Shown here one piece after another: positions 1 to 18,849 of a stretch of DNA of 18,849 nucleotides (within the stretch, counting starts at the first letter, position 1; each line of letters begins with the position of its first letter). The position numbers and the translations under genes were made by a program. Under the pieces are notes generated by a model. That model saw nothing but the letters and a program-made list of their open reading frames with translations, was not told the origin of the DNA and ran no database searches. The stretch is from Stephanodiscus triporus (lineage: Eukaryota; Bacillariophyta; Thalassiosirophyceae; Thalassiosirales; Thalassiosiraceae): contig JALLAZ010000253.1 in assembly GCA_036939755.1 (NCBI GenBank), forward strand, positions 1-18,849, in the 5' to 3' direction.

Positions 1-211
1 CTTTTTTTTATCTAGAGAGCGCCGCTAACAAAAGATAAGGGGGGGATCACCTTAAGCCCAACGTATCGGAAATTCATAGAAATCGAGCGACCGCTCGGAC
101 TGGGACCGACACACACCAGCTCGTTGTTGGGAGACTGAAAGAGAAGCTGGAGTGCGGTGGATTTGTACCCTTCGACTCGTTCGAGCCCCGGGATCGCTTA
201 CCGTTATTCCC

Positions 212-1134
212 ATGAGGGCCTTATTACTTGTTTTCTGCTGCATCCATCTAGCAACCGCTTTCGTCTCATCGGCCTGCATGCCGCGAGTTTTGACGGAGAT
301 GAGAGGAGGCTATGACGCCACCGTTGGCACCGATCCTTCGACGCCTATTCAATTTTTTACACTTCCTGGTTGCACGTGCCCATACGCACAGCGAGTACAT
401 ATTGCATTGCTTGAATTATTACTTCCATTTGACATGACGGAGATATCGTTGCCAAAGCCTGACTGGTACTTAAAGATCAATCCAGTAAGTACAATTTCTG
501 ATGGTTTGATCTTTTTGAGTCTTTTCTGGGGCATTGTATAACTTCCTCCCACTTTTGCTGTATCGAAAAGCGTGGTAAAGTTCCCGCACTCAGAATACCA
601 GCTGAACAGAATGCAGTAATATACGAGTCGGCCATATGCAACGAGTTTTTGTGTGATTATGCAACAAAATTGCAAAAACATCATACTTTGATGCCTATGG
701 ACCCAATTCATAAAGCAAAAATACGCTTGCTCAATGATCACTGTGACAATGTCTTTTCCAAGACGCAATTCACTTATCTCATGAACAAAGATGATGAAGC
801 GGATGCAGGTTTACGTGCGGAGATGGAAAACGCACTGAAATGTTACGAGGACGCTCTAGTGGAGAGCAAGGGCCCTTATCTGATGGGGGAGTTTTCCGTA
901 GCTGATTTGCATGTTTTTCCATTCATTCAGCGGTTGTTGATCACGCACAAGCAATGGAAGGATTATGTGCTGCCGAGCGACAAATTTCCTAATCTTTTGG
1001 CATGGCATGATTCATGCTTGGAAAGAGAATCGGTAAAGAAATCTTCCATGTCGAAGGATAAGACAATTGAAGTGTATGGGCGTTTTGTTGCCGCTGACTA
1101 TAAATTTGGAGGCCTGAATAAGAGTAGTTTGTGA
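212..1134 (+). CDS. Glutathione S-transferase-like protein, omega-type, probably plastid-targeted
   Basis: Two exons, 212-484 and 571-1134. The 86-bp intron (485-570) has a GTAAGT donor and AAAG acceptor, and splicing in phase 0 gives 278 aa. The open frame runs upstream to a GTG at 152, but the first ATG is at 212. That start gives a hydrophobic leader ending A14-T15-A16-F17, which matches the diatom A-x-A-F signal/transit junction, so plastid import is likely. Residues 46-115 form a thioredoxin-fold GST N-domain: CTCPYAQR contains the catalytic-type Cys56 as in omega GSTs and glutaredoxins, Val95-Pro96 is the cis-proline pair, and Glu110-Ser111 is the glutathione gamma-Glu site. The rest is a helical C-domain with GEFSVADLHVFPF near its core. 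Omega-type enzymes usually do thiol transfer or dehydroascorbate reduction rather than conjugation. The substrate cannot be told. The stop lies only 73 bp from the convergent gene on the other strand. Confidence 0.85.
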
Positions 1135-1207
1135 TGGTCGTTTTACTGAACTAAGGTTGTGCCATAATGATCTTTTAGGGTTAGTTTTTTCACTCTTTAG
1201 ACGGAAA

Positions 1208-4200
1208 TCAATCAGACTTGGACATGCTTGCTTCGAGAACGGCATTCTCCAAAGAATCTTTTACATCCGAAAACGGCGCCAAAACTGTTACCTTCTGTTG
1301 TCCCTGCGGACCTCGGCCAAAAATGCTAACAACTAAAGGGACTTCTTCCTTTGATAATTCTCGCAAGTCAAGTGGCGATAGACCAGCCAGACCCGAATGT
1401 CCTGCAAAGAAAATTTGTCCCAGGGGTCCATCACCCGTGTCAAAATCCCTCTCCGATCTCCACCATATAAAACGGTGTCCTTCAATGAGACCAAAAGCGG
1501 GCTCCCAGCTCCAATTTCTTGACGAGATTGATGTAGAATAGTCTACTTTCTTCTCCTTCAGCTCAATGGCTCCATACCATTTTGCTTTCCAAAGTTTTTC
1601 GAGACGACTGTGACGCTTGGCATTAGCCTGGCGCAAGCATTAGTGGCAAGAAACACCATTTCAGATAGTAGGATGCAGTACTTAACAACATGAATCAAGG
1701 TGAATTCATCGCCGACTTACGAATCTTTTGCGTTCCTTCTCTCCCACACGACGTGCCTCCCAAAAATAAGTTCTGCGCAAATCTTCATCCGTAGGAATGG
1801 ACAGGAAAAGATTCTCTAATGGGTTGCCCGTGTTTGCCGAATCAACAATTTCTCTAGCTGTTCCATGAATGGATTTATCCGGCGGCGCAAGGAACTTGGC
1901 GTAGTACGTAGCACCAAATTGTGCCTAGGGCAGATGGTAGACAAAATGGGAGACGTCATGCTCGTTGAGTTAGCTGCGTGCATGCCTGTCAAACCAAAAC
2001 AAACGATGTCATAAATTTCGTATTCTCACCAATCCGCCAAACAAAATGACTATTCGGGTGGGAATCCGCGCCAATACAATCCAGAGGATCGTCAGGCACA
2101 GAAGAATGAAACACGATATTCTTGGATTCGAAAAGTTGAAAGCATTTCTTCCTCGTTCTAGCATGTCAACAACGTAACTTAATTGGTTTTGTAACTTCCC
2201 CCCCAGAGTTCGAACAGTGTTGATTGTATTCAGGGATGATCCTATCACCCCGATGCTGTTTTCTTGTGCCATTGAAGCGGTGCGACTCATCTCCTCACAA
2301 ACAACTTTGAAAGACTCAACATCATCTCCTGAAGATGCGTCTCCAGCAAGAGATTGTCGTGGGGAAAACTTGACTTTGACATGCAATTCGGGAAACTCTA
2401 CAGTAGGAATTGATCCGTCTTCGTCTTTACTATCGAAATCTTCACTTACTTCTTGAGACTTCACAGCAGTATCATCTGGTGACTCTCCTGGAATAGTGTC
2501 CGTGGTTCCGACATCGAGGAGGCGAAACCAACCCTCAACTACCCTTCCACTTCCCGCGAGCTTTGCTAGAGGTATGGCTACTTCTCCTAATACACTGTCA
2601 AACAAATGAAATGACCCCAGTACGTCACTAAAGCGAACTTGAATTACAACTGCACCAGAAGATTGTTCCCAAGGCATCAATGTGATACCCCTACCGCGTC
2701 CACTGTCAGCATCTTCACCACTGGAACCACAATCTGTGACTGGCTGAAGAATTGGGTAGGTAATAGAAGCATTCATTTCCTCCATAGGCCTCCAGAGCCG
2801 ATCATTGGGTAATAAATATTTCAGCCGCATGAGTTCTGGGCTCTCCTGCAGTTCGTTCCAAATTGGACTAGACGTAATACCCGGGCTGGTTGTGGCTCCA
2901 ACCTGATGACTACAACCGCTTGATGAATCGATTTTTATGAGAGATGATTTCACTTTTTCGTCCGCATACCGTAGAGGATCATAAAAAATGGATGCGTAGA
3001 AGCTACCCGGCAGACCTAAATCTCGTGATCTGAGATTTTTTCCTCGCAGGTCACCAACCTGCAGAAGACCTAGCGGCCTGAAAATAGATTGATTTGTTTC
3101 AATCTTTGTCTCTGACTTGATGAGAGCCTCTTTCTCCTGCAAAGTCCAACGATCTTTAAAATGACCGTTGACTCTTATGTAGCCCAGGTATATCATATAT
3201 AATACAAGGAAACCAATCGGCAAAGACCCAAGATATTCTATGTTGAATCTAAGAGTGAGGAAAACAAAAATTACCTAAACAGTGTGGAAACGTGCGCAAG
3301 AATGTTGGTTGTTGTTTGTTGTGCAATATGCTAACATTGGCGCGGTCAAATGCAGACATGATCTCACCATGTATGCACCGGTAAGTTCTTGATTCTCCCA
3401 GCTCACAGCATATAAGTAGGTCGAAGCTACTTGTTGAAGGCTCTCAACTATCGCGGTAATTCTAGCTATGTGGAGTTGAATGATGTTGACATCAAATTCT
3501 TCTTCTGGCCTACCGATTTGTCGCGGATTGGTCGAATAAAATAATTGCCTATCTTCTTCCAAATGAACATCAATTTCCAGCCATCCAGATATTTCACCGG
3601 GGCGTTGTGAAGATACTTTTCCCTCGTTGGGGTCTCCTGCTGAAATAGAAGAATTGTAAAAGTTCAACCCGAAACCGTTCTTGACTCCTGTCCGTAGCTC
3701 CAACTTCACCCGACGAAGCTCGGAATAATTTCGCAAGTGGAAAAATGATAGAATTGTCCGGTCCAAACTCGCGAATATGTCATCTCGTTGCCATTGGAGC
3801 AAGCCTTGGGCTGACAGTAGGCATAATCCAATAGGCTTGTCTGTATTCGCATCCACCACCTCTAGTTTGTACTCCATTCCGTAGTGAGGAACATCGAACA
3901 CCATTTCTTCTGAATCAAAGAGGGGTTTGGGTGTCTGTAAGACTGTCTTAGTACGCTGTGACTCCTTGCTTCCGAGCCAAGACACGCGGACGTAATGATC
4001 ACCGTTGCGGAGATTGAAGTCTGACTCGAAAATTTCGTTCGGCTCTGCCTCTGGTGGGAAAGTTTTGTCAAAGAGACAAGCCCTCAGAATCCTAATATTC
4101 AATATTCCTATCCCGTCTATGGATCTTCCCTCGTGAGAAAGTACATTGAAATTAGATTGACCATACGATTTTTGGTGACTCGAATCACCTTCACTACCAA

Positions 4201-6955
4201 ATTCAAGTGACGCCTTTTCCATGTCAAGATGTGGTGCTATTGTCGTCATGATCTGGCTAAAGGTTGGCACCTGGTACTGCTGTGCCTTTTTTACGGCAAT
4301 CGTTGCGAGTTCTGATCCACATGGAATACGTGCATCTACCTGCAGCTGACAATCTCGACAGCAGACAAGGTGACAAGCCTCGCATTCGAATCCTTGCACC
4401 CAACCGGTGATAATCGGCCGGGAACAGATGGAGCACCATGTTGGAGTCCAGAAAGTTCGGACGCGGAGTAAGTGTGATTTGGTTACTGTAGCGCCACGAG
4501 GGATAAGTGCCGGCGTTAATGTGGACGACGCTTTGGATATGCTATCGTCGTCTAACAAACCACGACGAGTAGGGCGAATGATGAGCGGTACAGACCCTAG
4601 CCTTTCTGAATCTCTTGAAATATTGAAGAGATCTGAATCGTCGACTTCTGTCTCTCCCTCCATAATTATTTGGCTTGAGATGTTGTTTGATACAGTAAGT
4701 CTTGTCGCTTTGGGCTCAAAGCATGCTTCCAGTAACACCAATGGACCAATTTCAGCATCAGATAAATCATTTGCAGGGAACCATTTACGCGTCCAGCTTC
4801 GAGGGTTTCGCAAAAGATCATGACATGGGACTGATATTGAGCATAAAAATCGATCAAAAACCCCGCCCAACGACGCACCAAACGACGATCGTAATTCTAG
4901 AATGATGGCAGGAACAGGTGTATCTGGATTGTTGTAAGCATGCACCATCGAATGGGGACAAGGCTCTTTGTCAACAGGTTCGCGATCCTTGCTGCTACCC
5001 GATCTGCTCCCTGATCGTTTTTGATCTGACGGCTTGTCCCACCTCAAACACACTCCCGCTCCCACCGGGCCTTCGACGGCTATGTGTGCTGGGATGCGAA
5101 TCCGTCCATTCCATGGTTGGAGAGATAACGTTGCATTGATGAACGTCCCAGATGTACACGGGAGGCGCTGCGCGCGCAGTAGCCTGACATGAAAAAATCC
5201 GTACCGATTAAGCGATGGATCCCATGACGGATTGCTGTCGTCTTCAATTTGCGGAAAGGCTGGCGATGGGACGGCAAAGTCATCCAACTCGTTGGATTCA
5301 GTGAGCTCACTATCATTGCTACTTTGAGAATGGAATGAGTCGTCGGAGAAGGACCCACCATCATCATCGGCATGATTTTTCTCGACAACTCCTTGCTTCT
5401 CTTCTCCCTGATATGTACTGCTCGATCTAATTTTTGCGTGGCCATCAGAGTCAGCATTTGCATGAAAAGAATGTTCGTCTCCTCTCCTTCTTTCTGCTCG
5501 GGCGTCAGCATTATAATCATTTTCGTGATCTGTCGCTGTCTGTACAGGACCAAGGACCAACGCTGACCTATCACTAGCCATCTCGATTGGTGACATAGAC
5601 GACGCCAACTTGCGACTTTGAGCAATGAGTGTTGTCTTATCATGAACGGGCGGTGGTATTGCACCGAATCGTTGCTCCCCGACCCCTCCCAACAAGGAAA
5701 TATTGTCATCCCAGTAGTCAGCAGTCGGTGAAGCCATGGTGAGATCAGATGCACGATCAGCACTTGCTCTTGCTAATTTACTGCCTTTGTTCTTTTCTTT
5801 CACCTTGCCACCCAAAGCGGTGGCCTTTGATGCCACCTCAGCATCTGATGGAACGAATGGTGGCAACGGTACCGATGATGAACTATACACCTTCTTTGTG
5901 GCGTCACTGTCTGACCATGATTGTGCGGGACTCTTTGGAGGAGAGAGTGACGGCTCGCGTAACGTTTGTCGAATGACGCCGGGTGTTGGCCGGTTGTTTG
6001 CCCGTGTTGCTGGTCGAGCGACGGCAGTAGGTAGATGTTGGGCACGAGTAGAGTTGTGACTGTTTAGTGGCTCCGATGGGAGAGGCGGGAAGAATTTAAT
6101 GGGAGAAGGTTGATGCTGATTCTGTGTGCTCGGCACTTGAATGACAAACGTTGATGATGATGGAGGTAATTGAGATATATAATGTGAAGTATGCCTCGGT
6201 CGCTCGCTTGTAACTTGGGAAAATAGCATCGGTGGAGGGGGGGGACGAGGTGGATGTGGTGGGGAAATCGACGTAATCGTCGTATCATCGACGTCATCGT
6301 CTTTATTTCCCAGATTGTCAATGTGTATGTTCAGATATGCCCGAGAAGCCGTGTCCCTGTCCCCGATAGTAACTTTGGTTGGAGCCGGAGAAGCAAGAGC
6401 AAAATCATGCATTTGTGACAGTAGGGGTGATGCTATATCATCCAAATAATGTGACATGAGAGGTAATTGGTGTTGTGATTGAAACGCAGTATCGGTCTCT
6501 CCTCTCAATGTCGTTGCTGCAACTGCAGCGTCTTCATCAAAAATGGTGTTCCGGTCCACATTTTCAGCACGATTTATTACATATGACGGATTGGGTGGTT
6601 CGTCAAGAGCCAAATATTCGCCCGCCATTGCCATCAGCGGAGTGGATGAACAAGCGTCTGGTGATTGGTTTGCCCGTTTGGTTGGCGATGTCGGTGGTGG
6701 TGAGATTTCAGGTTTGCTTCCTGTCTCTTGAGGTGGGGGCTGCGGCGGGGGCGGCGGCTGCGGCGGCCGAGATTTAGTGGCAATGTTTTGCACGAAGTTG
6801 TCCGCAACGCGATTGGCATTCAATAATTCATTTGCAGTATTGTCGACTACTGTGTCGCCGCCATCGGGAGCAGACCCGGCAAAAGAGGCTGCCTCCTTGG
6901 ACTGAGAGCCTAGCACCCAATCTAGCGCATCGTCTACCTTGTTGAGCCATTGCAT
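1208..6955 (-). CDS. MCTP-like multi-C2 membrane protein with a C1 domain and PH-like C-terminus
   Basis: Four exons on the minus strand: 6955-3368, 3274-2030, 1924-1721 and 1627-1208. The introns are 93, 105 and 93 bp, all phase 0, giving 1818 aa. Residues 1-580 are low-complexity, with proline runs and acidic/serine stretches. A first C2-like domain spans about 585-748 (begins YGFFHVRLLRAQRLP). A C1 zinc domain follows at 828-879, with His828, Cys841, Cys844, Cys858, Cys861, Cys869 and Cys879. A second C2 lies at about 950-1086. A hydrophobic hairpin at about 1197-1231 after VSWENQELT resembles the first membrane hairpin of MCTP proteins. A third C2 with large inserts (about 1265-1501) comes next, then an amphipathic helix ending ERGRNAFNFSNPRIS and a second hairpin (about 1583-1611). 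The final exon looks PH-like by strand pattern and terminal helix. MCTPs bind lipid and Ca2+ at ER-plasma membrane contacts. A similar role here is inference, and the PH call is the weakest part. Confidence 0.78.
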
Positions 6956-7397
6956 GATTGGTCCACTCCTCTGCTATAGTATCAGTGAGCCGGCGACAAC
7001 CTCGCTTTTCTTTTCATAATTGAGAATTTGTAGGAGGTCGATGCGAAGTCTGCATCACAATCTCCGCGGTTGTGATAAGTAGACAATAGTTAACCATATT
7101 GTACGTTCGCCACTCACAATCCCTCGCTCCTTCTGCCTCGCTCTGATAAAAACAACTTTCCAGCAGCTAGCACCCCTCGTCGCCATCGTTAGCCGGCGGA
7201 ATCATCGCCATCGCACTCCTCCCGCTCGCGATCGCGTCGACGCCATCCCCGCGGGGGGACGAGGACTACACCGCCGACGATAGTACGCCTGACGAAATAA
7301 CAATCGCGTCATCGAAGACACAACATCGACGACGACACTAACGACGACAGGAGCCGGAGCGTCACACGAGGCGGTACAGCGGAACTTTGGTGGTTCA
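6956..7397. promoter_or_regulatory. Divergent intergenic region, probable shared promoter
   Basis: This 442-bp stretch separates the start codons of the MCTP-like gene (-) and the homocysteine methyltransferase gene (+), so both promoters and 5' leaders must lie here. The frame upstream of the methyltransferase ATG stays open back to a TGA near 7288 but contains no ATG. That fixes the start at 7398. I see no convincing TATA box, RNA gene or repeat beyond short ACG/GAC runs around 7320-7350. Confidence 0.5.
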
Positions 7398-8530
7398 ATG
7401 GAGACAAAAAAAATAGTAATCCTTGATGGTGGCATTGGGCATGAACTAAAGCTGAGGGGAGTTTCGGACGGCACCTTCGTTGCCGGAGTCCTGGCCAATG
7501 AAGATTGTTCCGCCAACAATGTCGTTGAAGCCATTCATAGGGACTATCTTGCCGCTGGCTGCGTTGTCATCACGACGAATAGTTTTGTCGCTGTGAGTAT
7601 CTTGAAGAGAGGACTTCTTTTACGATGTTCTCGGTGTGTTTCTCAATAATCGACATCACTCAGGTTCCTCAAAGGATGCTTGAGTGTGACCTGGCAACTA
7701 ATGACTCGGATTCCAAACGACGCGCGTCGCAACTAATTATAGCCGCAGTTAATCGAGCGAGGGGTGCCATCGCAAAACATTACGAGAATGTTGAAGTGGA
7801 CAAGCGCAACAAGATGATTGCAGTTGCAGGGTGCATACCACCTCTCACTGAGTGTTATTTTTCGAACAAAGTTCCTTCATCTGTAGAGTGCCTAACGCCA
7901 GAGTACACCGTGATTCTATCCACGCTATTAGAATGCAATGTTGACATTCTTTTGGCAGAGACATTATCAACAACCCGAGAGGCACGAGCTATTCTTCGTT
8001 CCTTGTATTGCATATGTCAGACAGGAAAGCATCTCATTCCGCCACTTTGGATGTCTTTTACCATACATGACGATCAGCCATCGAAACTTCGATCGGATGA
8101 ACCGTTGGATATGGTGTGCCAATCAATCCTCCGTGAGGCTGCCGCTCTCAATCTTCCACTTGAGGCTGTGGGTATCAACTGCTCGACACCAAGTGCAATT
8201 TCTGATGCCGTTAAGATTCTCGTAAAATTAGTAGAGGGCACAGGCATTAAAGTATGCGCATACGCTAATTGTTTCAAGACGACGACATCGGAATGGATTA
8301 AAACCGTAAATGATAATGCCAATGATAGTGATGATGCATGCACTGCTGAGCTGAGATCAGAGGTGGAAATTTGTGCAAAAGATTACGACGAAGAGGGATT
8401 GACTACAGATGCCTATGCAAGATTTGCTCTCGAGTGGGCTCGGTCAGGTGCTCAAATAATTGGTGGGTGTTGCGGAAGCAGGCCAAAACACATGAGCAAA
8501 GTTGCAACAGCATTAAAGGACTTTGTGTAA
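7398..8530 (+). CDS. Homocysteine S-methyltransferase
   Basis: Two exons, 7398-7592 and 7664-8530, with a 71-bp intron (GTGAGT donor, CAG acceptor, phase 0), giving 353 aa. The protein opens with the (beta/alpha)8-barrel signature ILDGGIGHELKLRG and has TTNSF after the third strand. The zinc-binding cysteines of the Hcy-binding family are all present: Cys238 in GINCS, and Cys334-Cys335 in GGCCGSRP. The family moves a methyl group from S-methylmethionine or a similar sulfonium or betaine donor to homocysteine, making methionine in the cytosol. The donor cannot be read from the sequence. Length is normal for single-domain enzymes (about 300-350 aa), and there is no cobalamin or folate module, so this is not MetH. 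The segment 306-320 region before the final helix carries acidic residues of no obvious function. No targeting peptide is visible. Confidence 0.9.
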
Positions 8531-8893
8531 ATAGGGAGCAGATAGCCAAGACGAGATACCTATCATCGACTGGCACATAACGTTGCTGCCGCATGATACA
8601 TCGCACTGAAAACAAGGTTATTAGTGCCCTGGCAAACTAAGCAACATGAATGAGAATTCGAGCTAGTGATATGTACCTTTGTTCGCAATGAACACTTAGT
8701 GAACCAATTTTTAGTGCACTCCCTACCATGCTTCATCTTTTTCTGGTGCCTAATATTCTTGATTGACACTGCTATGATTTATTGCGTGGGTAAAAGTGGT
8801 CAATAACTTCGTTCACGACAAGACAATTATGACCAATGATAATCATACTCAAGATGTGACCTTATCCATCCCGTGCATGTTGTTTCCCACTCT
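8531..8893. other. Convergent 3' intergenic region
   Basis: This 363-bp, fairly AT-rich spacer lies between the stop codons of the methyltransferase (+) and the helicase (-). It should hold both 3' UTRs and polyadenylation signals. The short ORFs here (60-70 codons) have no recognisable domain, and I see no RNA gene or repeat. Confidence 0.5.
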
Positions 8894-10889
8894 TCACAGT
8901 ACACTGTAACGCCCTCCTCCTCCTGAAGACCGAGCACCGACACGGAGAGTTTCTTCATTCAAAAGCCTCTTAATCTCTAAGATACAATTTTGCAAGATTT
9001 GACTGGATTGTGCCTCTAAGTGAAGATACAACTTCCTCTCTCCTTCAGCCGGGGTTTTACCAGATTCAATGTACTGCCCCTTGAGGGTGACTGCAGTCTG
9101 AAACTCATCCTGGAGACGTGAGGTGGTTTCTTTCTGGGTAACCTTCCAACGAGCCTGTTGGGGGTAGTCGTTGATTTCGAGTTCCTCCAGAAAATGATTT
9201 TCACCCATCGAAGTTGGCCCGTCGTCCACGGGGAGCATACCCGCCTTCTTCATGAGGGCCTCGCGCATGCCCGGGATGGTCAGTACGTCTGCCGATACAT
9301 TAGCTAGCATGCCCACGGCATCCTTCTTCCTGATGCCGGAGGCGGCAGGTCTACCTTTGGCACCCGCCTCACCACTGTCGACATAATCATCTTGATCTTG
9401 ACCCTTGGCCTCTTCTTCATCGGGGTCAAGAAGACCTGCTTCAATAAGAGCCTGTCGCTTTTCCATTTGTGCCAACTTCTGGGCATCGCTAATCTCTGAC
9501 GAGTCATAGGAGTAGCCTTTGCCCTGATAGCCACTGTTCGCCCATCGAGCCTCTCCCTTGGCAACCTTCTCCTTGAACGACTCCGACAAGTCCTTCAGTT
9601 CCTGGCTCAAATTCTTGGAGTGACCCGCCTCGATGAGTGCCCTTACGACGATCGGTGCGAACTTAGCTTCGTCCGTGGAATTTACGAACGTATATGCTAC
9701 GCCACGATTGCTCGCCCGGCCTGTCCTACCGACTCGATGAACGTAATCCTCCAAATGATTCGGAGCCGAATAGTTGACTACGCACCCGCACGAGGGCACA
9801 TCCAAACCCCGTCCTGCCACAGACGTGGCAACCAGGAGCTGAGGTCCGTCAGCGCGCTTGAAATCAGACATGTTCGAATCACGATCCTCTTGATCCATTC
9901 CTCCGTGAATGGAGAGCGAAGAATACCCGCATCGCGTCAGCTGCTCAAAAAGCGAATCGGCCTGCTCCTGCCTTCCCACGAAGACAATAACCTTCTTCTC
10001 GCCATCTGCGTGCTCGCCCAATATTTGAAGTAAACGCAGAAATTTGTCTTCCTCTTCCACCAACTCCGCATATTGATCGACCGAATCTGACGCCACAGAC
10101 CGGCCGCCCACGATGATCTCGAGGGGCGACCTCAACGACTTCTTCGCGAGATTCTCGACGGCCTTTGGGAACGTCGCGCTGAACATGACCATTTGTCTAT
10201 CAGGTCTTACGGCCGACAGAATCGCCGATATCTGCGGCTCAAACCCCATGTCGAAAGCGCGATCGCTCTCGTCGAGGCACACCATGCTTACGCGCTGTAG
10301 CGAGATCAATTTTCCCGATTGCATCGTTAGAATGTCGATCAAACGTCCTGGGGTTGCACAGAGGATGTGGGTGCCGCGCTTCAGGTCGCCGATCTGCTCA
10401 GCCACGCCCGCGCCGCCGTAGACAGCCGTCGATTTCAGCCCAAGGAACTTTGTGAGTCCCTTGCAAACGACGTGGATCTGATACGCCAACTCTCGTGCCG
10501 GCGCGAGGATCAGCCCTATAGGGCCCGTCTCATTCGGCGCGAGCGGGGGCTGGTCCAATATGTGGCGCAACATCGGCAGCACGAAAGCCAGAGTCTTTCC
10601 GCTCCCCGTCTTGGCGATGCCAATCACATCCCTACCTGCCATGATGCATGGCAAACACTGCGCCTGCACCGGGAACGGGTCGCTGATTCCCTTCTTCTCC
10701 AGCACGGATAGTATTCGCTCGGACAACCCCGCCTCGCTGAATTTCGACACGGGCGCCGGCGCTCCCTTCCCCCTGACCTTCACTCCCAGTCTCGCGCGCC
10801 GTTCCGCCACATCCGTCGGGGTCAATGCCGCGAGCGATCGTGGGACGATGTAAAGATTCTTGCGAACAGGGAGGTAATCCACAGCGAGA
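8894..10889 (-). CDS. PRP5: PRP5/DDX46 DEAD-box RNA helicase, catalytic core and C-terminus (5' part missing here)
   Basis: Continuous exon of 664 codons after a split Ser codon. PRP5/DDX46 is the U2 snRNP helicase that proofreads branch-site pairing during prespliceosome assembly. Visible motifs, in order: DYLPVRKNLYIVPRSL (the PRP5 lead-in), Q-motif, AKTGSGKT (I), PARELA (Ia), TPGR (Ib), DESD (II, normally DEAD), SAT (III), HGGMDQEDRD, ATSVAGRGLDV, HRVGRTGR (VI). The tail EELEINDYPQQARWKVT through GGRYSVL is characteristic of DDX46 rather than DDX42. The frame can be read upstream to 10948, but only from a TTG, and the first ATG falls inside the helicase fold. The bases TTACTTTTTTAG just before 10889 form a good splice acceptor, so a 5' exon is required. 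The segment 10890-11072 contains no suitable exon. The best candidate is the acidic exon at 17436-18706. The human protein is about 1030 aa, so roughly 350-400 N-terminal residues are missing here. Confidence 0.88.
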
Positions 10890-10901
10890 CTAAAAAAGTA
10901 A

Positions 10902-10915
10902 GGGCAGATCTGCCC
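10902..10915. repeat. 14-bp perfect palindrome beside the helicase splice acceptor
   Basis: GGGCAGATCTGCCC is its own reverse complement and ends about 12 bp upstream (minus strand) of the helicase acceptor. A second, 10-bp palindrome, GCCCGCGGGC, lies at 10951-10960. Function unknown. The pair sits at one edge of the 6.5-kb block separating the two PRP5 parts. Confidence 0.6.
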
Positions 10916-11072
10916 GGATCGGAAAAAATTGGGACAGGGACAGACCAAAAGCCCGCGGGCAGAAAAAATAGAGGCTTTCCTTAGAGACTTTAAACGTTTT
11001 GGTTTCGTCTCTTAACTCAGTTCAGGAACAATCCGCCATCGCCCGGCCGGCCGGGAAGATTATCTCCACGAG

Positions 11073-12245
11073 ATGTCCAAGAATGCACCCCGGTTCCTCG
11101 ACTACCGCCGCAGCCCGCTGCCGTTGGACGTCGCGCTCTCCTTCGCCGTCGCCACTCACACGACGTCGACGACGACGACGACGAGAACAATATACATTCG
11201 TAACGACGTGGGGACATCCACGCCGCGCGAGCTCGTCCTCTCGGGGAGGGTCCGCGTGAACGGCATCGTGGCAACGTCCCGGCATCGCCTCGTGCGTCGG
11301 AAGCACGATCGCATCGAGGTCCTGATGTGCGGCGACGAAGTAGAGCACGGAGCCTCCTGGATGGACGTCGTCGTCGCCATGCCGCGGTACTACGCCTGCT
11401 ACAAGCCCCGTGGGGTGGTGTGCTCCGCGGGTAGGAACGAGGGCATCGACAGGGCGGATTCGGTCTTGATATCCGACTGGCTCGAGGGCATCGTGTCCGG
11501 CGGCGGCCGCGGTCTCGAAAACATACAAAAATGCGCGATGATGATGAAGACGGTTGGCAGGCTCGACGAGGAATCGGAGGGACTGCTCCTCCTGACTGAC
11601 GACGGATCTTTCTCGAGGCTGCTGTGCGATCCGGAATTCGGACTGAAGAAGACGTATCGGGTCGTGATGAGGGGGAGCGGCGACTGCGGCGATACGACGA
11701 CGACCGACGCCACCGCGGGTCGACGCGTTGACGATCGTCGTCGTCCTCGTCGTCGTCTCGCCGAAATGGTCGCCGACATGATTCATCGCGGCCAGTCGAC
11801 GAGGCCGCATTTCACTTACGAGTCCTGCCGCGTCCTCGACGCCGGGAGGCTCCCGACGCAGCATCCCTCCGACGATAGCTTTTACGCCCTCGCGGACCTA
11901 GTCTTGCGCGAGGGGAAGAGGCACGCCGTGCGTAGGATCATAAAGAATGCCTCGGTCGGGGGCGGCGGCGGCGGCGGCGGAACGCTGCGAGTATGCTACC
12001 TGTCGAGGATAGCTGTGGAGGGCCTAGCGTGCGGCGTGGTCAAGCCGGAATCATTGATTGAGGCCCAGGCGATGGGATTCTTGCCTGTGGATGGCGAAAG
12101 ACATCGGAAGGAGGTGCCGGCGGGGAAATTGGTCCTCAGCGACGACGACGACGACCGTTCGATGCTACATCCCGGACACTTGGTGGAACTGAGCGGGTGC
12201 GATGTGGATACGATATTTTCTTTGCGGAGTTTAGGCTACAGATAG
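11073..12245 (+). CDS. RsuA/RluB-family pseudouridine synthase
   Basis: Single exon, 390 aa. An in-frame TAA about 80 bp upstream with no ATG in between supports the start at 11073. An S4-like RNA-binding segment lies at about residues 48-85 (LVLSGRVRVNGIVATSRHRL). The synthase domain begins at YYACYKPRGVVCS (107-118). The catalytic motif GRLDEESEGLLLLTDDG (162-178) carries the nucleophile Asp165; bacterial relatives usually have T-S-G where this has E-S-E-G. FGLKKTYRV and EGKRHAVRRI are further family motifs. The enzyme isomerises uridine to pseudouridine, classically in the large or small rRNA of bacteria, so an organellar rRNA target is likely, although no clear targeting peptide is visible. 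Lineage-specific inserts are a Thr run (30-37, encoded by ACG repeats), an Arg-rich loop (about 203-229) and a Gly run near residue 295. The gene is GC-rich. It lies antisense between the two PRP5 parts. Confidence 0.88.
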   Translation: MSKNAPRFLDYRRSPLPLDVALSFAVATHTTSTTTTTRTIYIRNDVGTSTPRELVLSGRVRVNGIVATSRHRLVRRKHDRIEVLMCGDEVEHGASWMDVVVAMPRYYACYKPRGVVCSAGRNEGIDRADSVLISDWLEGIVSGGGRGLENIQKCAMMMKTVGRLDEESEGLLLLTDDGSFSRLLCDPEFGLKKTYRVVMRGSGDCGDTTTTDATAGRRVDDRRRPRRRLAEMVADMIHRGQSTRPHFTYESCRVLDAGRLPTQHPSDDSFYALADLVLREGKRHAVRRIIKNASVGGGGGGGGTLRVCYLSRIAVEGLACGVVKPESLIEAQAMGFLPVDGERHRKEVPAGKLVLSDDDDDRSMLHPGHLVELSGCDVDTIFSLRSLGYR

Positions 12246-12335
12246 CATATCTTCAGCCGCATTTATTGTGCTGAGAGGTCAGGCCGCGCGACACGGCGGC
12301 GCCTAAATATTTTATTGGTAACGGAGTGCCGACTC
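12246..12335. other. Short convergent spacer
   Basis: Only 90 bp separate the stop codons of the pseudouridine synthase (+) and the LPMO-chitinase gene (-). Base composition drops here from GC-rich to AT-rich. Nothing else is visible. Confidence 0.4.
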
Positions 12336-15300
12336 TCAAGGGAAATCTTGCTCATCGGATTGGCGGCGAGCTGGGATAATTCCAGGTGAATCATTGCGCT
12401 CTGTCTCGTCCTCCACGTCGATACCACCCTCCTTGCCAATGGCGATATCAAACGATCGATCCTTTCCGTCCGATTCATCTTTACACTCAATGTCATTGCC
12501 GAACGATTGTCTCTGTCCCTCCGATTCGTCTTCGTCATCAATGCTATCTTTGCTTTCTTCTTTGTTGTTTGCTCCCAAATAATTGCTAATATTCATCTCG
12601 CTGCCGTGCTGAATATCTGAAGCGTGCAATTCTTTTTTCTTCTTATCCTTTTGTGAGCGCATAAATCGCGTGAATCGTCCTATCTTCTTCGTTTCCTGCC
12701 CCTCCTCGAAATGTTGATTGGGATTACCATGGAAGGCAGGTTCAACCTCGATAGTTTGCGGTTGATCACCAGTTCTGTCATGATATCTAATCTCATATGA
12801 ATCGACAGCTAAGTGATTTGGATTGTCATCATAAGTCTCTAATGAATTATGAGTTTTCCTCCATGATTCGAGAGCCATCCTCCAAGTTTTCTCTGTAGAT
12901 TCTAGTGTGTGCACTTCTTCTGAAGTACATCTTGTTTGTGGTCTTCTTCGTTTCCTGACTGCAAACAAAAGGACTCCAAGCAAGGCAATGACAAATACAC
13001 TGAATAAAATAGCAATTATCATGGTGGTGGTCCCTTCCTCACTTTGCGGTTGCGACGCCGTGAGAGAATTGGGAACCGTAATGTTTGATTCAAGAAGGTC
13101 GCCGAAAATCACTTTCTTAACATTTGCCGATTCATACGCACCCAAGACCATGTCCATGCGAATGGCAAAGACGAGCTCGTCCCTGATTTCTTTCAAGACT
13201 GCGTCAGACGTCTCCGATTTAACTTTAACTGTCAATCTTCCCATCATTGAATAGCATATTGTTGGCACATCCATTGTGGTAATATTGATTGAGCATGGAA
13301 CTGCAAATAACAAGGTAAGAAATGAAAACAAAGAAAGATGAGAACAAATAAAAAAAGTCAAGCAAAGTACAAGTTTATAGTCGCTGTGCATTGGAACATA
13401 CGGTGACCAGCGACCTCTCAAGGCAATTCAAGTACTGTACTGCTTACCATTCTGGTGTAAGTCTGTAGGAGCAGATTCTAACGCCTTTACATACTCTCTC
13501 GATAACAAGAGTGACTTGCTACTGGAAATGCGCAACATGCTCGAAGAACTGGTGCAACGGAGCTGGCTGGCAATACTTGTTAACATGGCGCTCTTTACTT
13601 CTATCAAGACATCAGATTTTGGAACGCTAACACCACCGTGCAGTTCATACCAGAAGGAGAGATCTAGCGATTTTGAATCAGCTATGTTAAACGTAGTTTG
13701 TTGGGTGCCACATAGAAACACTGTTGATGGCTGACCAACGGCTGATACTTCGCTCGATGTCACTGGCTGACCAATGACTGATGGGGCGGTCGATGTTGCT
13801 GGCTGGCCAATGGCTGATAAGTCGGTCGATGTTGCTGGCTGACCGATGGCTGATGGTTCAGGATTACCTGGTGAGGATTCATATGTTGCTGGAGTTGGGG
13901 GAACTCCCTGATCAACTTGTATATCTCCACCCTCCTCTGGGTAAATTCCTGGTTCCCCGCAGCTTAAGTCAGGATTTTGCAGCTTTTCATTGGTCATATC
14001 AAGCAATGGAGTCGATAGATCGTCCATTAGATCGCCAGTCAACTCCCATATGATGAATCCTGCCAGATTATTTTCGATTGCATATTGCACCTTGGCGCAT
14101 ATCGCGTTTTCGTTGTCAAAGGAAACCAAGCCACCATCCTCGAAATAAGCATATTGTGTCCATGTTTTCTTGTCCCATACGCTTGTCATACTAGGAAGCT
14201 TGGCGATGATATTGAAGTATTGTGGAGTTCCTTTAATGATTTTGGGCGAAGATGTTGTAGACAGAACACATCAGATTTGATCAATGGAAATCGAATATCT
14301 CATGTTGTCAACACTGGTGCTCACCATCATCAATGCCCCAATTTAGTTGATCGGCACCACTATTCCCAAATTTATCGCAAGCGCCAATAGTGAGAACGAA
14401 ACCATTTCATTTTGAGAAAAGCGCAGATAGTTGCAAAGACTCTACCTGTGTTGCTGGTTCAAACCTGTAGCTGTGGCGAAGGAGCGCCCATAGAAGGGCA
14501 GCCCAATGTCTGCAGCAAATTAAGGTTTCAAGTTAGAAAAGCGACTCTAGTATGGTGCTAGGGTCAGGGTCGGCACTCACTGATCTTATCACGACTGCCA
14601 CCCCCTTCTAACCAGTTTTTCACGCAATTGTGAACGTCAAAGTCAGCTTCACCCCAGCCTTGGTCGTATAGGGGAGCGTTGGTACCAGTTGTTGCGGAGA
14701 ATGAGCCGTGGAAATCTTTTTCCAAAACAAAATTTTAGACAGCTATGACAAAACAATATGCGTAAGAGCAGGAACAGTTATAATAACTCACCGTATGTCA
14801 TCAAATTCAATTGGGATAAGGTATTGGAGACATGTGCAATGTCCATATTCGCGATATGAGTAGGTCCACAAGGAAGCGCCGCTGTCAATCCATAGAACTT
14901 CCCCGTCTGCGCTCCAAGCTCATCGAGCTTGGTCCGAACGTCATTGAGCAGGAGATTAAAATTGTCTTTGTCTTGCGGGGTACCCGAGTGGTCGACATAA
15001 CCGGGATACTCCCAGTCAATATCGATGCCTTTAGGATATGGCATACGGATAAGAATAAAGTAAGGTTAGACGAGAAATGACTCACATCGACGACTAAAAA
15101 GAAATCACTTACCATCGAAATCATATTCCACGATGAGATCGACGCAGTTCTGAGCAAATGTCGCCCTCGCCGAGGCATCGGCCGCCATCTTCGGAAAGGC
15201 ATCGCTGAGAGTCCAGCCGCCAAGACTCGGATAAATCTCGGCCCCGGCCGCTTTGACGAGATGGATCAACCCCTTTTCGTAATCATGGTGATTGCACGCC

Positions 15301-16859
15301 TTGTTCGATGGACCGTCCCACGAGCAACGTTCCATCGACCCTTCGCTCGGATTCCAGTTGTAAGGCCCGAACAACACGATGGGATCTGCCCAGGAGTCAG
15401 TGCCCCATATGGCTCCCTGGGTGTCGGTTTGGAAGAAGGCAAAGTTAACTGGGGTATGCAGCGCAGAAAGACAGTGCGTGAGGGAGTGAGGATGATGTAC
15501 AAGCTGCGAAAGAATCCTGCAGAGAGGAACAACCTGGAACAACTTACCCCTTTGTACTTTTGTGAAGTCCATGCTCTCGGGCGCCGCCTTGTTGTTCCTA
15601 TCGTACCATTGCCATGACTTGGGAGGTGTCGAGATGTAAGTGAAAGAAAGTAGCATGCACAATCAGATCATGATACATGACGACGGCCAACTCACTGCGT
15701 AGTATCCCACGATTGTCTTGCCGGCGGAGGGAGGGTTGTTACCTTCGCTCTGTGACGGCATACTCGCCGACGTGAATAATTCTGTTGACGCATCGGCGGG
15801 AGCTGGCACATCGACTATTCCTGATGAAGTTTCGGCGGGAGTGGGCGTAGCGACCGGGGGATTGGGAGACGGAACTGTATTGGGTTCTTGCGATATTTTC
15901 ACCTCCGCACAATTCCTAGAGGACAATATGCATCGCGACGGACGCTCGTTAAAGATCGGGGGTTTTATGCACGATTTCGCTCTTGCATAAAAATCTCACC
16001 AGAACTGTTCGGGTACGCCAGTCCCATCCGAGCTGATCTCCCCACAGGCCACGGTAGACGGGGTGGACCAGCCGTCCGGCCATTCGTACGACTGGTACCC
16101 CTCGTGATGGCAGCTGTTCGCCGTCAAATAATACCTGCGGACAAATAATATAACACGGCGAAATACGGCAAATCCAGCCGTACACTCAGACTACATTCGG
16201 AATTCCTGCAAGTCCGTGCGGCTTGGAACACGCCCAAAAACTCACCACTGGATCAGGACGAGGTCGCCATACAAATCGGGAGGCAGGCGCATCTTGAACG
16301 ACAACGACATGACAGCCGCCGAGGACGTGTAATCGGGCACGTAATTCGGATCGCCGTTCGGCGGCACGTACGCTCTCTCGGGATGGTTCGGATCATATTG
16401 GGCACCGTGGAGCAGATCCTCCACGAACGTCAGCCTGTTCGCGTCGAAGCAATCCTGACTCGGTATCTCGCCCGGCGAGATCGGACAGCCCGAGAATACG
16501 AAGTGTCCGCCGTGCACGGCCGTGAGCGACACGTCCACCGTGATCTCCTGACCCCGAACGTACGCGGCCTGGACGGACGGCGGCATGTCGCCCCCGAGGG
16601 CGTTCCTGGGAGCGTCGTAATTCCGCCCGTTGACGAGGCCGCACCGCGCCAGACTCCCGCCTAGGTTCAGGCAGTGGGGACACGATTCCGGCTCGGGATC
16701 GTTCTCGGTCTGCGGCCACCAAACCGTCTCCTCGTAGGCGCGGAGGTTGCGCGAGCGCGGACTCGCTAGGTAGCCGTGGCCGCTGACGCCCCAGAGCCAG
16801 GCCCCGCCGGAGGAGGCGAGGAGCGAGTAGAGTAGGTTCGCTCCGTTCGGCGTCATCAT
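12336..16859 (-). CDS. Membrane-anchored LPMO-like / GH18 chitinase fusion protein
   Basis: Eleven exons: 16859-16246, 16134-16000, 15915-15696, 15617-15548, 15448-15113, 15028-14792, 14715-14581, 14509-14446, 14359-14325, 14230-13448, 13300-12336. All ten introns (71-147 bp) are GT-AG and phase-consistent, giving 1197 aa. The frame extends upstream only to a TTG at 16877; the first ATG is at 16859. A 27-residue signal peptide ends before His28 (HGYLASPRSRN). That leaves the N-terminal His of an LPMO/chitin-binding type-4 domain (28-253), with His116 in AVHGGHF as probable second copper ligand. A Pro/Thr/Ser linker leads to GH18 (about 316-699), with SLGGW at 421-425, DGIDIDWE with acid Glu465, and Trp677. 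Then come 12-residue repeats (741-785), a Cys-containing ectodomain, one TM helix (970-991), an Arg/Lys stop-transfer and a 200-residue acidic tail. Exon 3 alone encodes LPMO end, linker and GH18 start, so the fusion is not a splicing guess. Likely role: cell-surface chitin remodelling. Confidence 0.85.
13722..13856 (-). repeat. 36-bp tandem repeat encoding a 12-residue stalk repeat
   Basis: Nearly four copies of a 12-residue unit of the form S-A-I-G-Q-P-A-T-S-T-x-x, degenerating along the protein (SAIGQPATSTD, SAIGQPATSTA, SVIGQPVTSSE, SAVGQPST). They lie within exon 10 between the GH18 domain and the ectodomain. The Ser/Thr/Pro content suggests an extended, possibly O-glycosylated spacer. 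The close nucleotide similarity points to recent tandem duplication. Confidence 0.85.
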
Positions 16860-17225
16860 CTGGGCCGTGGTGGGCAAAACGATTGATGCGTTGGGCGAGA
16901 TGTGTAGAGCGGCGACGAACTCTTAGGATAAATGGGATCGGTTCGCCATGGCGATTGATTCGACAAGTTTGTTTGTCCGCGTCTCGGTGGTACGCACGAT
17001 CGATCGAATATTACGTACTCTGTTTCAAGGTCAAAAGGAGAGAAGAAGGCCGACTGCATCATTACTCTATGATGTGTATCGTAGTGTCGCTGCCAAAAAA
17101 TCTCCAGTCGGGGCGATCGTGCGGGGCTGATCAAGCGAGACTCGTGTACAAATCAAAAAAGTATTAAAATCGGCTTGAGAGTTAAGCGATCCTCTTAGCG
17201 ATGTCGTACGTACCATACCGCCGCT

Positions 17226-17255
17226 CCCGCCCGCCCGCCCCGCCCCGCTCCCCCC
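17226..17255 (-). other. G-quadruplex-capable tract upstream of the chitinase gene
   Basis: Six runs of 3-6 cytosines separated by 1-3 bases on the plus strand give six G-runs with short loops on the minus strand. The tract lies about 370 bp upstream of the chitinase ATG, on its coding strand. Folding and function are inference. Confidence 0.55.
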
Positions 17256-17283
17256 ACTCAAATTCGAACACTGTGACGGAGCT

Positions 17284-17324
17284 ACTGTATGTAACTTCCA
17301 CAAAGGTAGGAAGGTACATACAGT
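17284..17324. repeat. Inverted repeat, 16-bp arms with one mismatch, 9-bp loop
   Basis: ACTGTATGTAACTTCC (17284-17299) pairs with GGAAGGTACATACAGT (17309-17324) except at one position, around a 9-base loop. The hairpin lies about 110 bp downstream of the acidic exon's donor on the minus strand and about 23 bp from the undetermined base at 17347. It could be a transcript-end hairpin, a small transposon relic or a sequencing-difficult structure. Confidence 0.7.
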
Positions 17325-17435
17325 GCAGATCCGTCAAAGACTCGACCNCTTCAACGCAGGAATCGATGTCGGAATTCTCTTTAACTTTACCAACGCCCTG
17401 CGCGATGTCTGACGCAGCCATGTCAACGAACTGAC

Positions 17436-18706
17436 CTAAGCTCCTTCTTCTTATTCATCTCCGCCAGCACCTCCAGGGCGTCTGGCGCCGCCGTCAACGC
17501 CGCGAGTGTCCGTTCTGCCTCCTCCATGACCCCGCCTTCGCCATCGTTGTACATTCGCCCCACGTCGACGGCGACGTGAGTCTGCCTTCGCAGGCGTTCG
17601 GCCTCAAGGGAGAGCTGCTTGACGGCGTCCTCGCGGCGTTGTTTCTCTGATCTAACCTCAGATTTGGTTTCATACTCGTCGTCCCCGTCCTCACCATTGT
17701 TGTTGTTGTTGTTGTTGCGGCCACCATTCGACATCACGGCGACGGCAGCCTCGGGGAGAGGGGCCGACCGTTTCAAGGCATCGATTAATGCGCGTCGCGC
17801 CAATTCCTCCTCCTCGTCGTCGTCCGTCTCCTGATCTTCCGTTTCATTCCCACCCTGAGAATTTTCATTGTAGGGAGTGGCTGGCGCGTCTGATTCCCAA
17901 TCGCTGTAAGTGTAATTCGCCGTTGCCGCCGTCGTCGTCGCGGTTTCCAATGTCGTTGCGGCGTTGATAGCTGTTTTCCGTACGGACAACGACGACGTTG
18001 CCGCGACGGGGACATTAGACATAGCACGAATATCAGCTTTGACGGAGGTCCTTGCCATTCTTACCATAGATCCCGAAGAATCGATGTATGATGACGGCTT
18101 CGATCGTTTCCGTCGCTGGTCGTCGGCGGTCGGCCCCTCCTTCTTATCCGATGGACCACCGCTTCCGGCGTCGTCGTCGTCGTCGTCGTCGTCCGCCACC
18201 GCATCGCCCGCCTCGAGACGCATCATGAAGGCGTCGAGGGCATCATCCACCCCCTCCTCGGTGGATCCTTCTCCGACGAGATTGTTAACCGCCGCTGTCA
18301 TCGGCTCCTGGGAGGCCTGGTGATCGTCGCCCTCCTTGACGTCCCATCGTCCCCGCCGTCTCCTTTTGAGGGGGGGCTCACCCGAAGATGTGCCCCCATC
18401 CCCCCTGTCGCCCCCCCGTTGCTGCTCCTGCTGCTCCTGCCGCGGCTGCTGTTGCACCTGTGTCTTGGCGATCGATGAAGACGCGGTAACACTCAAAATA
18501 TTCAATTCATCCACGCCCAGCAGGCCAGCACGGGACTTGCCGGCGGCCGCTGCATCCTCGTCGCCGTTTTCGTCGTCGTCATCGTCGTTGATCTTCTTCT
18601 CGTCTCCCAAAAATTCGACGCCGGTGGTCCGTCGAATCGCGTCGTTCTTCTTCTTCTTCTTCTTCCGTCCCCTGATGTTAGACGTGCCCCCCGTGGCAAT
18701 GTTCAC
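17436..18706 (-). CDS. PRP5: Acidic exon resembling the N-terminal half of PRP5/DDX46 (partial)
   Basis: Open frame of about 423 codons with no ATG at its upstream end: the apparent first codon is GTG. A CCTCAG acceptor places the exon start at 18705, so an upstream exon is expected, possibly beyond the right edge. The protein is disordered and charged: a Lys6 run, Asp runs, a KRRRRGRWDV patch, SDWESDAPATP and an Asn7 run. Two features point to PRP5/DDX46. One is DALDAFMMRLE (about residue 155), matching the DPLDAFM-type motif of PRP5/DDX42 helicases. The other is the final LAEMNKKKELRSV, which resembles the segment just before the helicase lead-in. A good donor (AG|GTCAGT) ends the exon at 17436 in phase 2, exactly what the helicase exon at 10889 needs. 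Without splicing the frame stops four codons later. Joined, the parts would give about 1088 aa, close to the family length. Identity rests on motif memory, not alignment. Confidence 0.62.
17697..17717. repeat. (TTG)7 microsatellite encoding an Asn run
   Basis: Seven TTG units on the plus strand encode seven asparagines in the acidic PRP5-like exon on the minus strand. Slippage-prone coding repeat. Confidence 0.9.
18170..18193. repeat. (GTC)8 microsatellite encoding an Asp run
   Basis: Eight GTC units on the plus strand encode eight aspartates in the acidic exon. Together with a (TTC)7 tract at 18645-18665 (Lys run), it shows that much of this exon's charge comes from triplet expansion. Confidence 0.9.
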
Positions 18707-18849
18707 TGAGGTGATGTGTATGGTAGTGATGACATTGGTTTTATTTCTTGGTCGACGCCCCCCGTCAGCGACGAGACGTGGGAGTGATTGTCCGTGTCAT
18801 CTAGTAAGTGATTGTTGCTGCCGCTAGCGGCGGCCGTGGATCCCTGGGT

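Follow-up and report, generated by a model that had tools for sequence, protein, structure and literature searches.

A stretch of 18,849 nucleotides from the diatom Stephanodiscus triporus (contig JALLAZ010000253.1, here C253, positions 1 to 18,849, in the following called the window) raises the question of whether its minus strand between positions 16859 and 12336 encodes a single membrane-bound protein with two chitin-active enzymes, and what such a protein may do. The answer proposed here is that one gene encodes an AA15-type lytic polysaccharide monooxygenase (LPMO) domain, a GH18 chitinase domain, a stalk, a juxtamembrane domain of about 170 residues with four invariant cysteine residues (labeled JM) and a single predicted helix. 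The product would likely, with a probability of roughly 0.6, be a tethered enzyme with which the diatom nicks and then hydrolyzes β-chitin of its own making at the place of spinning. The sequence itself shows which domains are present and in what order, the catalytic residues and those presumed to bind copper, and the grouping of the JM-bearing form in one clade; the signal peptide, the helix, and the folds of the LPMO and JM parts are predictions.

The gene was rebuilt from the DNA as 11 exons with 3594 nt of coding sequence for 1197 residues. The frame contained no in-frame stop, and all 10 introns were of the GT...AG type. The order within the protein was a weak predicted signal peptide, LPMO_10, linker, GH18, repeat stalk, JM, predicted transmembrane helix, and tail. 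An earlier note on this DNA had claimed a single gene in which the critical joins are located within uninterrupted exons, and this agrees with the spliced model. In exon 3 (15696 to 15915, minus strand, as all coordinates of this gene), the LPMO domain ends at about 15894, a Pro/Ser/Thr linker follows, and GH18 begins at about 15713, as assigned by splicing and Pfam. Exon 10 (13448 to 14230; splicing and alignment) encodes the GH18 C terminus, the stalk, and the first half of JM and thus of the ectodomain, and exon 11 (12336 to 13300; splicing) encodes the second half of JM, the membrane helix, the tail, and the stop codon. Each of the 10 exon junctions was covered by 9 to 11 of 12 aligned relatives, with a mean identity around the junctions of 6.1 to 12.5 per 13 residues and the minimum at junction 10. 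Two relatives derived from transcripts, P0003 (an open reading frame of an MMETSP transcript labeled complete) and P0006 (MMETSP0737, with the taxonomy identifier of Thalassiosira minuscula), displayed the full domain order.

The N-terminal domain, which the earlier note had called LPMO-type, matched the Pfam profile LPMO_10 (PF03067) at 5e-11, with 44 bits compared to a cut-off of 23, over residues 28 to 255. Exon 1 (16246 to 16859; splicing, Pfam, and model m69efce4b2415) encodes the weak predicted signal peptide (residues 1 to 27) and the larger part of the LPMO domain, including both presumed copper ligands, His28 (16778-16776) and His116 (16514-16512). The C-terminal part of the domain with the presumed axial Phe249 (16004-16002) is encoded by exon 2 (16000 to 16134), as assigned by splicing and a weak profile piece. 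In a profile search of the PDB, the AA15 enzyme 5msz of Thermobia was the only LPMO matched (1.5e-7). His116 was aligned with His91 of 5msz in this profile alignment, the position being counted by hand, Phe249 was placed on Tyr184 in a weak separate alignment piece, and the first His was outside the aligned part. A structural model of exon 1, comprising 177 of 230 residues with a mean predicted local distance difference test (pLDDT) value of 88, gave 5msz as the only Foldseek match at E<=0.001, and the identity in the structural alignment was 19%. By its best structure and profile match, the modeled domain is of the AA15 type. An AA10 identity was rejected because 5msz leads both ranks.

In the LPMO alignment, the first His was present in all 38 rows reaching that site, the second His in 43 of 44 rows, and the Phe in 42 of 42. 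His1, His91, and Tyr184 are named at the copper site of TdAA15A, and an axial Phe is reported for TdAA15B, which is handled as chitin specific, and for most chitin-active AA10 enzymes (PMC5823890). Since Phe249 corresponds to this pattern, chitin fits as the substrate, and the conserved site would be in agreement with a putative LPMO activity on chitin.

The second enzyme domain matched Glyco_hydro_18 (PF00704) at 4.8e-68 over residues 318 to 682, so that both profiles expected for the fusion were found. It is distributed over exons 3 to 10 (14031 to 15713), a location also indicated by six-frame PF00704 matches on contig C253. The catalytic DxxDxDxE motif, noted before as intact, is indeed complete as D458/D461/D463/E465. 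With profile and motif in agreement, the domain is a predicted GH18 chitinase. The interior of this domain was assigned by splicing to exon 4 (15548 to 15617), exon 5 (15113 to 15448, closing with the D458 codon plus a single base of the codon that follows), exon 6 (14792 to 15028, with the remainder of the DGIDIDWE sequence), exon 7 (14581 to 14715), exon 8 (14446 to 14509), and exon 9 (14325 to 14359, 35 nt).

Evidence for the membrane topology came from both ends of the protein. The N-terminal stretch had a hydropathy peak of 0.99 in a 19-residue window and 1.14 in an 11-residue window, and among the 12 relatives a value above 1.6 was reached by just P0003 and P0008. His28 is placed where the cut of the signal peptide would fall, and it is chiefly this position at the presumed mature N terminus, together with the relatives, that points to a signal peptide. 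This part of the earlier description thus stays a prediction with weak hydropathy. The stalk (13722 to 13854) has a 12-residue unit of the SAIGQPATSTDL type in 3.7 copies, visible as a tandem repeat with a period of 36 nt. A single strong hydropathy peak of 3.18 near residue 971 identified the predicted transmembrane helix (residues about 967 to 989; 12963 to 13031), followed by RKRRR. The same peak was present in 11 of the 12 relatives, the exception being P0004, which stops before it, so that the one-helix layout proposed before is in agreement with these data. Counted from RKRRR, the tail comprises 206 amino acids with 47 Asp plus Glu and 32 Lys plus Arg residues. It is acidic, as stated earlier, but moderately so. 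The tail contains a W-x-x-A motif (W1016 and A1019; 12870 to 12899; from alignments) about 27 residues past the helix. Its W and A were invariant in 11 relatives, and the remaining tail was variable. A cytosolic partner is suggested by the conservation of this motif. Four relatives, P0007, P0009, P0010, and P0018, carry a further conserved C-terminal segment of the type ELKKELEIYGVDxSN...EFVDAI, which is not present in the window protein.

Between stalk and helix is JM (residues about 784 to 955; 13065 to 13727), which is split by intron 10 and was delimited by an alignment designated A1, by a profile search, and by a model of the relative P0121. Alignment A1 contained 11 sequences, in which the four Cys and other residues were invariant. 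The JM profile gave strong matches in 12 of 121 proteins, and the remaining 109 were at E 0.29 or worse; 10 of these 12 were themselves part of the profile, and P0004 and P0121 were not. The AlphaFold model of P0121 had a mean pLDDT of 47 and a predicted template modeling score of 0.32, with the JM part at about 75 to 89 and predicted as a beta-alpha-beta-beta-alpha-beta fold. Pfam had no matches inside JM, the PDB profile search with JM gave nothing convincing (best E 0.19), and Foldseek with the whole P0121 model gave no matches at E<=0.001. A second, looser structure search returned middling ferredoxin-like matches; SEA structures were missing from its list, which carries no weight against a SEA-type domain. 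Since Pfam, the PDB profile search, and Foldseek yielded no specific kin, an identification of JM with a known domain was rejected. Region searches of the large protein database for further JM proteins returned P0121 alone in one case and P0121 together with P0001 in another; this method needs exact shared words, so the low number of JM proteins obtained says nothing about rarity.

To what extent this architecture is shared was evaluated with the relatives. The large protein database contained 232 proteins at E<=0.001, and the best 120 of these 232 were used. P0001 from Cyclostephanos tholiformis was 61% identical over 98% of the query. Other relatives with the same domain order were P0005 (a Thalassiosira), P0008 (labeled Skeletonema menzelii), P0009 (Stephanocyclus meneghinianus), and P0007, whose CCRYP tag was read as Cyclotella cryptica. 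Among the 12 JM-bearing relatives, seven (P0001, P0003, P0005, P0006, P0007, P0008, and P0009) possess the full chain from the LPMO N terminus to the tail, with LPMO, GH18, JM, and helix in one protein, and the named ones belong to the Thalassiosirales. The partial ones were P0002 and P0010 without the LPMO start, P0018 without the LPMO domain, P0121 without the LPMO domain and most of GH18, and P0004, which stops inside JM. Internal GH18 gaps in P0005 and P0009 and one missing residue in P0008 look like faults of the gene models.

Among the 106 rows of a GH18 tree, the 12 that bear JM were all on one side of one branch, with a value of 98 in the Shimodaira-Hasegawa-like approximate likelihood ratio test (SH-aLRT). 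The LPMO tree, with 44 rows, likewise placed its 11 JM-bearing rows together in one clade (SH-aLRT 100), which adjoins six LPMO–CBM14–GH18 proteins (SH-aLRT 94). A coverage rule kept P0121 out of the GH18 tree and P0025, P0026, P0027, P0036, and P0039 out of the LPMO tree. Because the JM-bearing rows form one clade in the separate GH18 and LPMO trees, the enzyme pair and the anchor appear to descend as a unit. Most simply, the tethered form may be one old subfamily in which pair and anchor were inherited together. The species-labeled JM-bearing relatives were all Thalassiosirales except P0010, which comes from an assembly labeled Alexandrium tamarense. Since both trees place this protein within the diatom clade, it is probably mislabeled or a contaminant.

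A query of JM plus the helix also matched another contig of the same genome, C1219, with 28% identity at 5.1e-11. The gene at this site (L016, 2809 to 5841, plus strand) is an intronless frame for 1010 residues. Its predicted signal peptide is followed by a head comprising about 350 residues, a repeat stalk rich in Pro, JM, a hydrophobic helix, and finally a tail, and its JM profile score was 93 bits versus 6.3 for the best of 5000 shuffles. The head was not recognized by Pfam, in which Glyco_hydro_19 gave no match at E<=10. A Glyco_hydro_19 profile search of the genome also missed it, and a PDB profile search returned an endolysin only, at E 0.37. The head was 62 to 65% identical to C-terminal parts of P0101, P0016, and P0120, and a profile-profile comparison with diatom GH19 gave a match of 68 columns surrounding a GRGxIQ motif, with a probability of 93%. 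By this partial match, the head may be called GH19-like, not GH19. P0016, P0101, and P0120 are themselves LPMO domains fused to a GH19-like domain, which was missed by Pfam in P0016 and P0101; P0016 unites LPMO, CBM14, GH18, and GH19-like domains in one chain.

The presence of JM, helix, and tail behind this unrelated GH19-like head in the same genome points to an anchor that diatoms may reuse for chitin-active enzymes. That stalk, four-cysteine ferredoxin-like JM, helix, and tail are used in this way with unrelated chitin-active heads, and that the tails control from inside where and when extruded β-chitin is oxidized and cut, is a tentative extension for which the odds are below even. The neighbor of the C1219 gene on the opposite strand (L026, 583 to 2424, minus strand) contains a distant JM with 38.9 bits by the A1 profile versus 9.6 for the best of 3000 shuffles, and it is a predicted membrane protein with an unclassified head. 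A frame of 1039 residues on contig C338 (L025, 2253 to 5369, plus strand) has two similar head repeats, a stalk, and, ahead of a hydrophobic stretch, Cys residues in a similar pattern; its 12.3 bits versus 10.2 in shuffles were marginal, and it was not counted as a JM relative. Weak rows of the JM search on contigs C181, C497, and C817 had E values of 0.01 to 0.03.

How these parts may act together can be outlined as follows. LPMO and GH18 would be outside of the cell, or in the lumen of a secretory or silica vesicle, and the tail would be inside. The LPMO domain would open crystalline β-chitin by oxidative chain cuts, the adjoining GH18 domain would act from the newly made ends, and the stalk would supply the reach for the enzyme pair. 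JM and helix would hold the pair at the plasma membrane or the membrane of a secretory or silica vesicle, at the site of extrusion, and the tail with its conserved W-x-x-A motif may couple the enzyme to a cytosolic partner. The anchor of JM, helix, and tail would be a cassette and not a feature of the LPMO–GH18 enzyme alone. The place at the cell surface, the cytosolic tail, the order of action, and the control are what we infer from the architecture.

The substrate should be considered in the context of chitin production by the organism itself. Thalassiosirales secrete β-chitin fibers via fultoportulae, and a chitin synthase of Thalassiosira pseudonana produced in Phaeodactylum was seen in the Golgi and the plasma membrane (PMC10134812). 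When and why diatoms degrade chitin has been stated as unknown (PMC5124317). The draft genome of S. triporus comprises 21.65 Mb in 1324 contigs, so gene counts are lower bounds. It contains at least two strong Chitin_synth_2 matches (554 and 537 bits), at least two LPMO_10 matches (the gene described here and a separate one on contig C18), and GH18 matches on at least six contigs, including that of this gene.

Several points weigh against the proposed tethered, self-directed enzyme. Hydropathy gives the window protein a weak signal peptide, on which the predicted secretion depends, and for this reason the proposal is held slightly less firmly. Both trees were quick ones without bootstrap and drawn from the best 120 of 232 matches. 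The LPMO part could bind chitin without oxidizing it, and JM could be a cleavage site instead of a lasting tether. A role on the cell's own chitin rather than foreign chitin is something we infer from the lineage and the chitin synthase matches, and the Chitin_synth_2 profile also matches 4 of 14 control genomes, including that of Escherichia coli, although the scores in S. triporus are high.

The tether may be transient. In this case, the protein would be cut at or near JM or the stalk, and the released LPMO-chitinase would act in soluble form within the wall space or the medium. JM adjoins the membrane and has the predicted beta-alpha-beta-beta-alpha-beta fold, similar to juxtamembrane domains that undergo processing in animals. 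Proteolysis has also been reported for TpSAP3, a single-helix membrane protein of diatoms (PMC5647440). On the other hand, alignment A1 has R, S, Y, or Q directly after the invariant Gly in the JM motif, so that no fixed motif for self-cleavage is conserved. The invariant W and A in the tail argue for use of the intact form; that SEA-type structures are missing from the match list excludes nothing. Shedding as the functional state is regarded as unlikely.

The protein may alternatively reside in the membrane of the silica deposition vesicle and edit the chitin scaffold of the forming wall silica, similar to the silicalemma associated proteins (SAPs), instead of acting on surface fibers. The diatom SAPs likewise exhibit a signal peptide, a serine-rich lumenal part comparable to the low-complexity stretch here, one helix, and a short conserved cytosolic segment (PMC5647440), and, in the cell walls of diatoms, chitin has been reported as a scaffold on which silica is deposited (PMC7874618). 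However, an enzyme or other catalytic domain of the SAPs is not mentioned in the available part of that description, and the likeness is one of layout alone, not of sequence comparison. In addition, the conserved SAP segment of 28 residues directly follows the helix (PMC5647440), unlike the more distant W-x-x-A motif. A location in this vesicle is given a low probability.

A third possibility is that the enzyme digests chitin of foreign origin at the cell surface, either as a source of nutrients or in defense against parasites with chitin walls. The combination of LPMO and chitinase is classic for degradation. Diatoms are rich in chitinases, with 22 in C. cryptica (PMC5124317). Nevertheless, the labeled JM-bearing relatives are, with the exception of P0010, members of an order that secretes chitin fibers (PMC10134812), and the genome has chitin synthase matches. 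This use of the enzyme is considered quite improbable. The same can be said of the idea that the LPMO part is a mere chitin-binding module that positions GH18 and has no oxidase activity: the AA15 match is distant, as judged from the structural alignment, but both His and the Phe are kept in nearly all rows, beyond the needs of binding. The idea that two or three adjacent genes were read as one, which may be brought forward because the window comes without transcripts from S. triporus itself, was rejected as hardly credible given the joins within exons 3, 10, and 11, the relatives aligned over every junction, and the identical order in P0003 and P0006.

Comparison with known systems concerns the statement of the earlier note that the architecture was undescribed, which held only in part. 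AA15 LPMOs fused to GH18 in one polypeptide were in print for Chlorophyta, Bacillariophyceae, and tunicates in 2018 (Sabbadin et al. 2018, PMC5823890), and another report describes AA15 LPMOs that are combined with GH9 or GH18 and possess C-terminal regions lacking order (PMC8615602). The tethered form was not found described: a membrane helix, a juxtamembrane domain, and a cytosolic tail, present or predicted in the S. triporus protein, are not mentioned in the available text of PMC5823890. The chitinases of T. pseudonana are likewise GH18 proteins with LPMO_10 among their auxiliary domains and membrane helices predicted for 6 of 24, including TpChi5, which carries one of three auxiliary domains and is outside the seven CBM_14 proteins named (PMC7874618); the family of T. 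weissflogii gives a similar picture (PMC12028343). In the available parts of both papers, neither the holder of LPMO_10 nor a protein combining LPMO_10 with a helix is named, and a juxtamembrane domain or shared anchor is not described. TpChi5 may be an orthologue of the gene studied here. No description of the tethered form, of JM, or of the sharing of JM with a second chitinase-like head was found in the literature searched, with most subscription papers, figures, and supplements being outside of it.

The diatom LPMO–CBM14–GH18 proteins (P0012, P0016, P0017, P0019, P0020, and P0023) are the nearest LPMO relatives and have the same catalytic pair, but they contain CBM14 and are not matched by the JM profile, whereas the window protein possesses JM. 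A multi-modular chitinase of Jonesia denitrificans, as indicated by the title of the publication, also contains a chitin-active LPMO within a chitinase polypeptide. This bacterial enzyme is said to be secreted and to combine AA10 with a GH18 chitinase domain, in difference to the protein described here. ScLPMO10D of Streptomyces coelicolor, which is likewise active on chitin, remains attached to the cell that makes it, in this case as a cell-wall-anchored AA10 LPMO with a sortase-type anchor, unlike the predicted helix here, and a chitinase domain is not mentioned in the available part of the text (PMC10067821). A membrane-fixed LPMO–chitinase would be a concrete candidate for trimming or shaping the chitin fiber at its exit and a natural case of oxidizing and hydrolyzing chitin enzymes held together on a living cell. 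The shared anchor may serve as a sequence handle for finding further tethered wall enzymes.

Other genes in the window were a glutathione S-transferase-like gene (502 to 1134, plus strand), a gene for a C1-domain protein (3275 to 6973, minus strand), and genes for a homocysteine S-methyltransferase (7583 to 8530, plus strand) and an RNA pseudouridine synthase (11016 to 12245, plus strand). A frame at 8894 to 11011 (minus strand) matched the Pfam profiles DEAD, Helicase_C, and KH_12, and one at 17423 to 18796 (minus strand) had no Pfam matches. Together they presumably make up a single PRP5/DDX46-type helicase, with the latter frame as its N-terminal exon and the former as the rest. Read by hand, a donor at 17435 is in phase with an acceptor at 10891-10890. 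The chitinase gene and the pseudouridine synthase gene would then be located inside a helicase intron of about 6.5 kb, or the contig would be misjoined. An intron of this size is unusual for a diatom. A lone N is located at position 17348.

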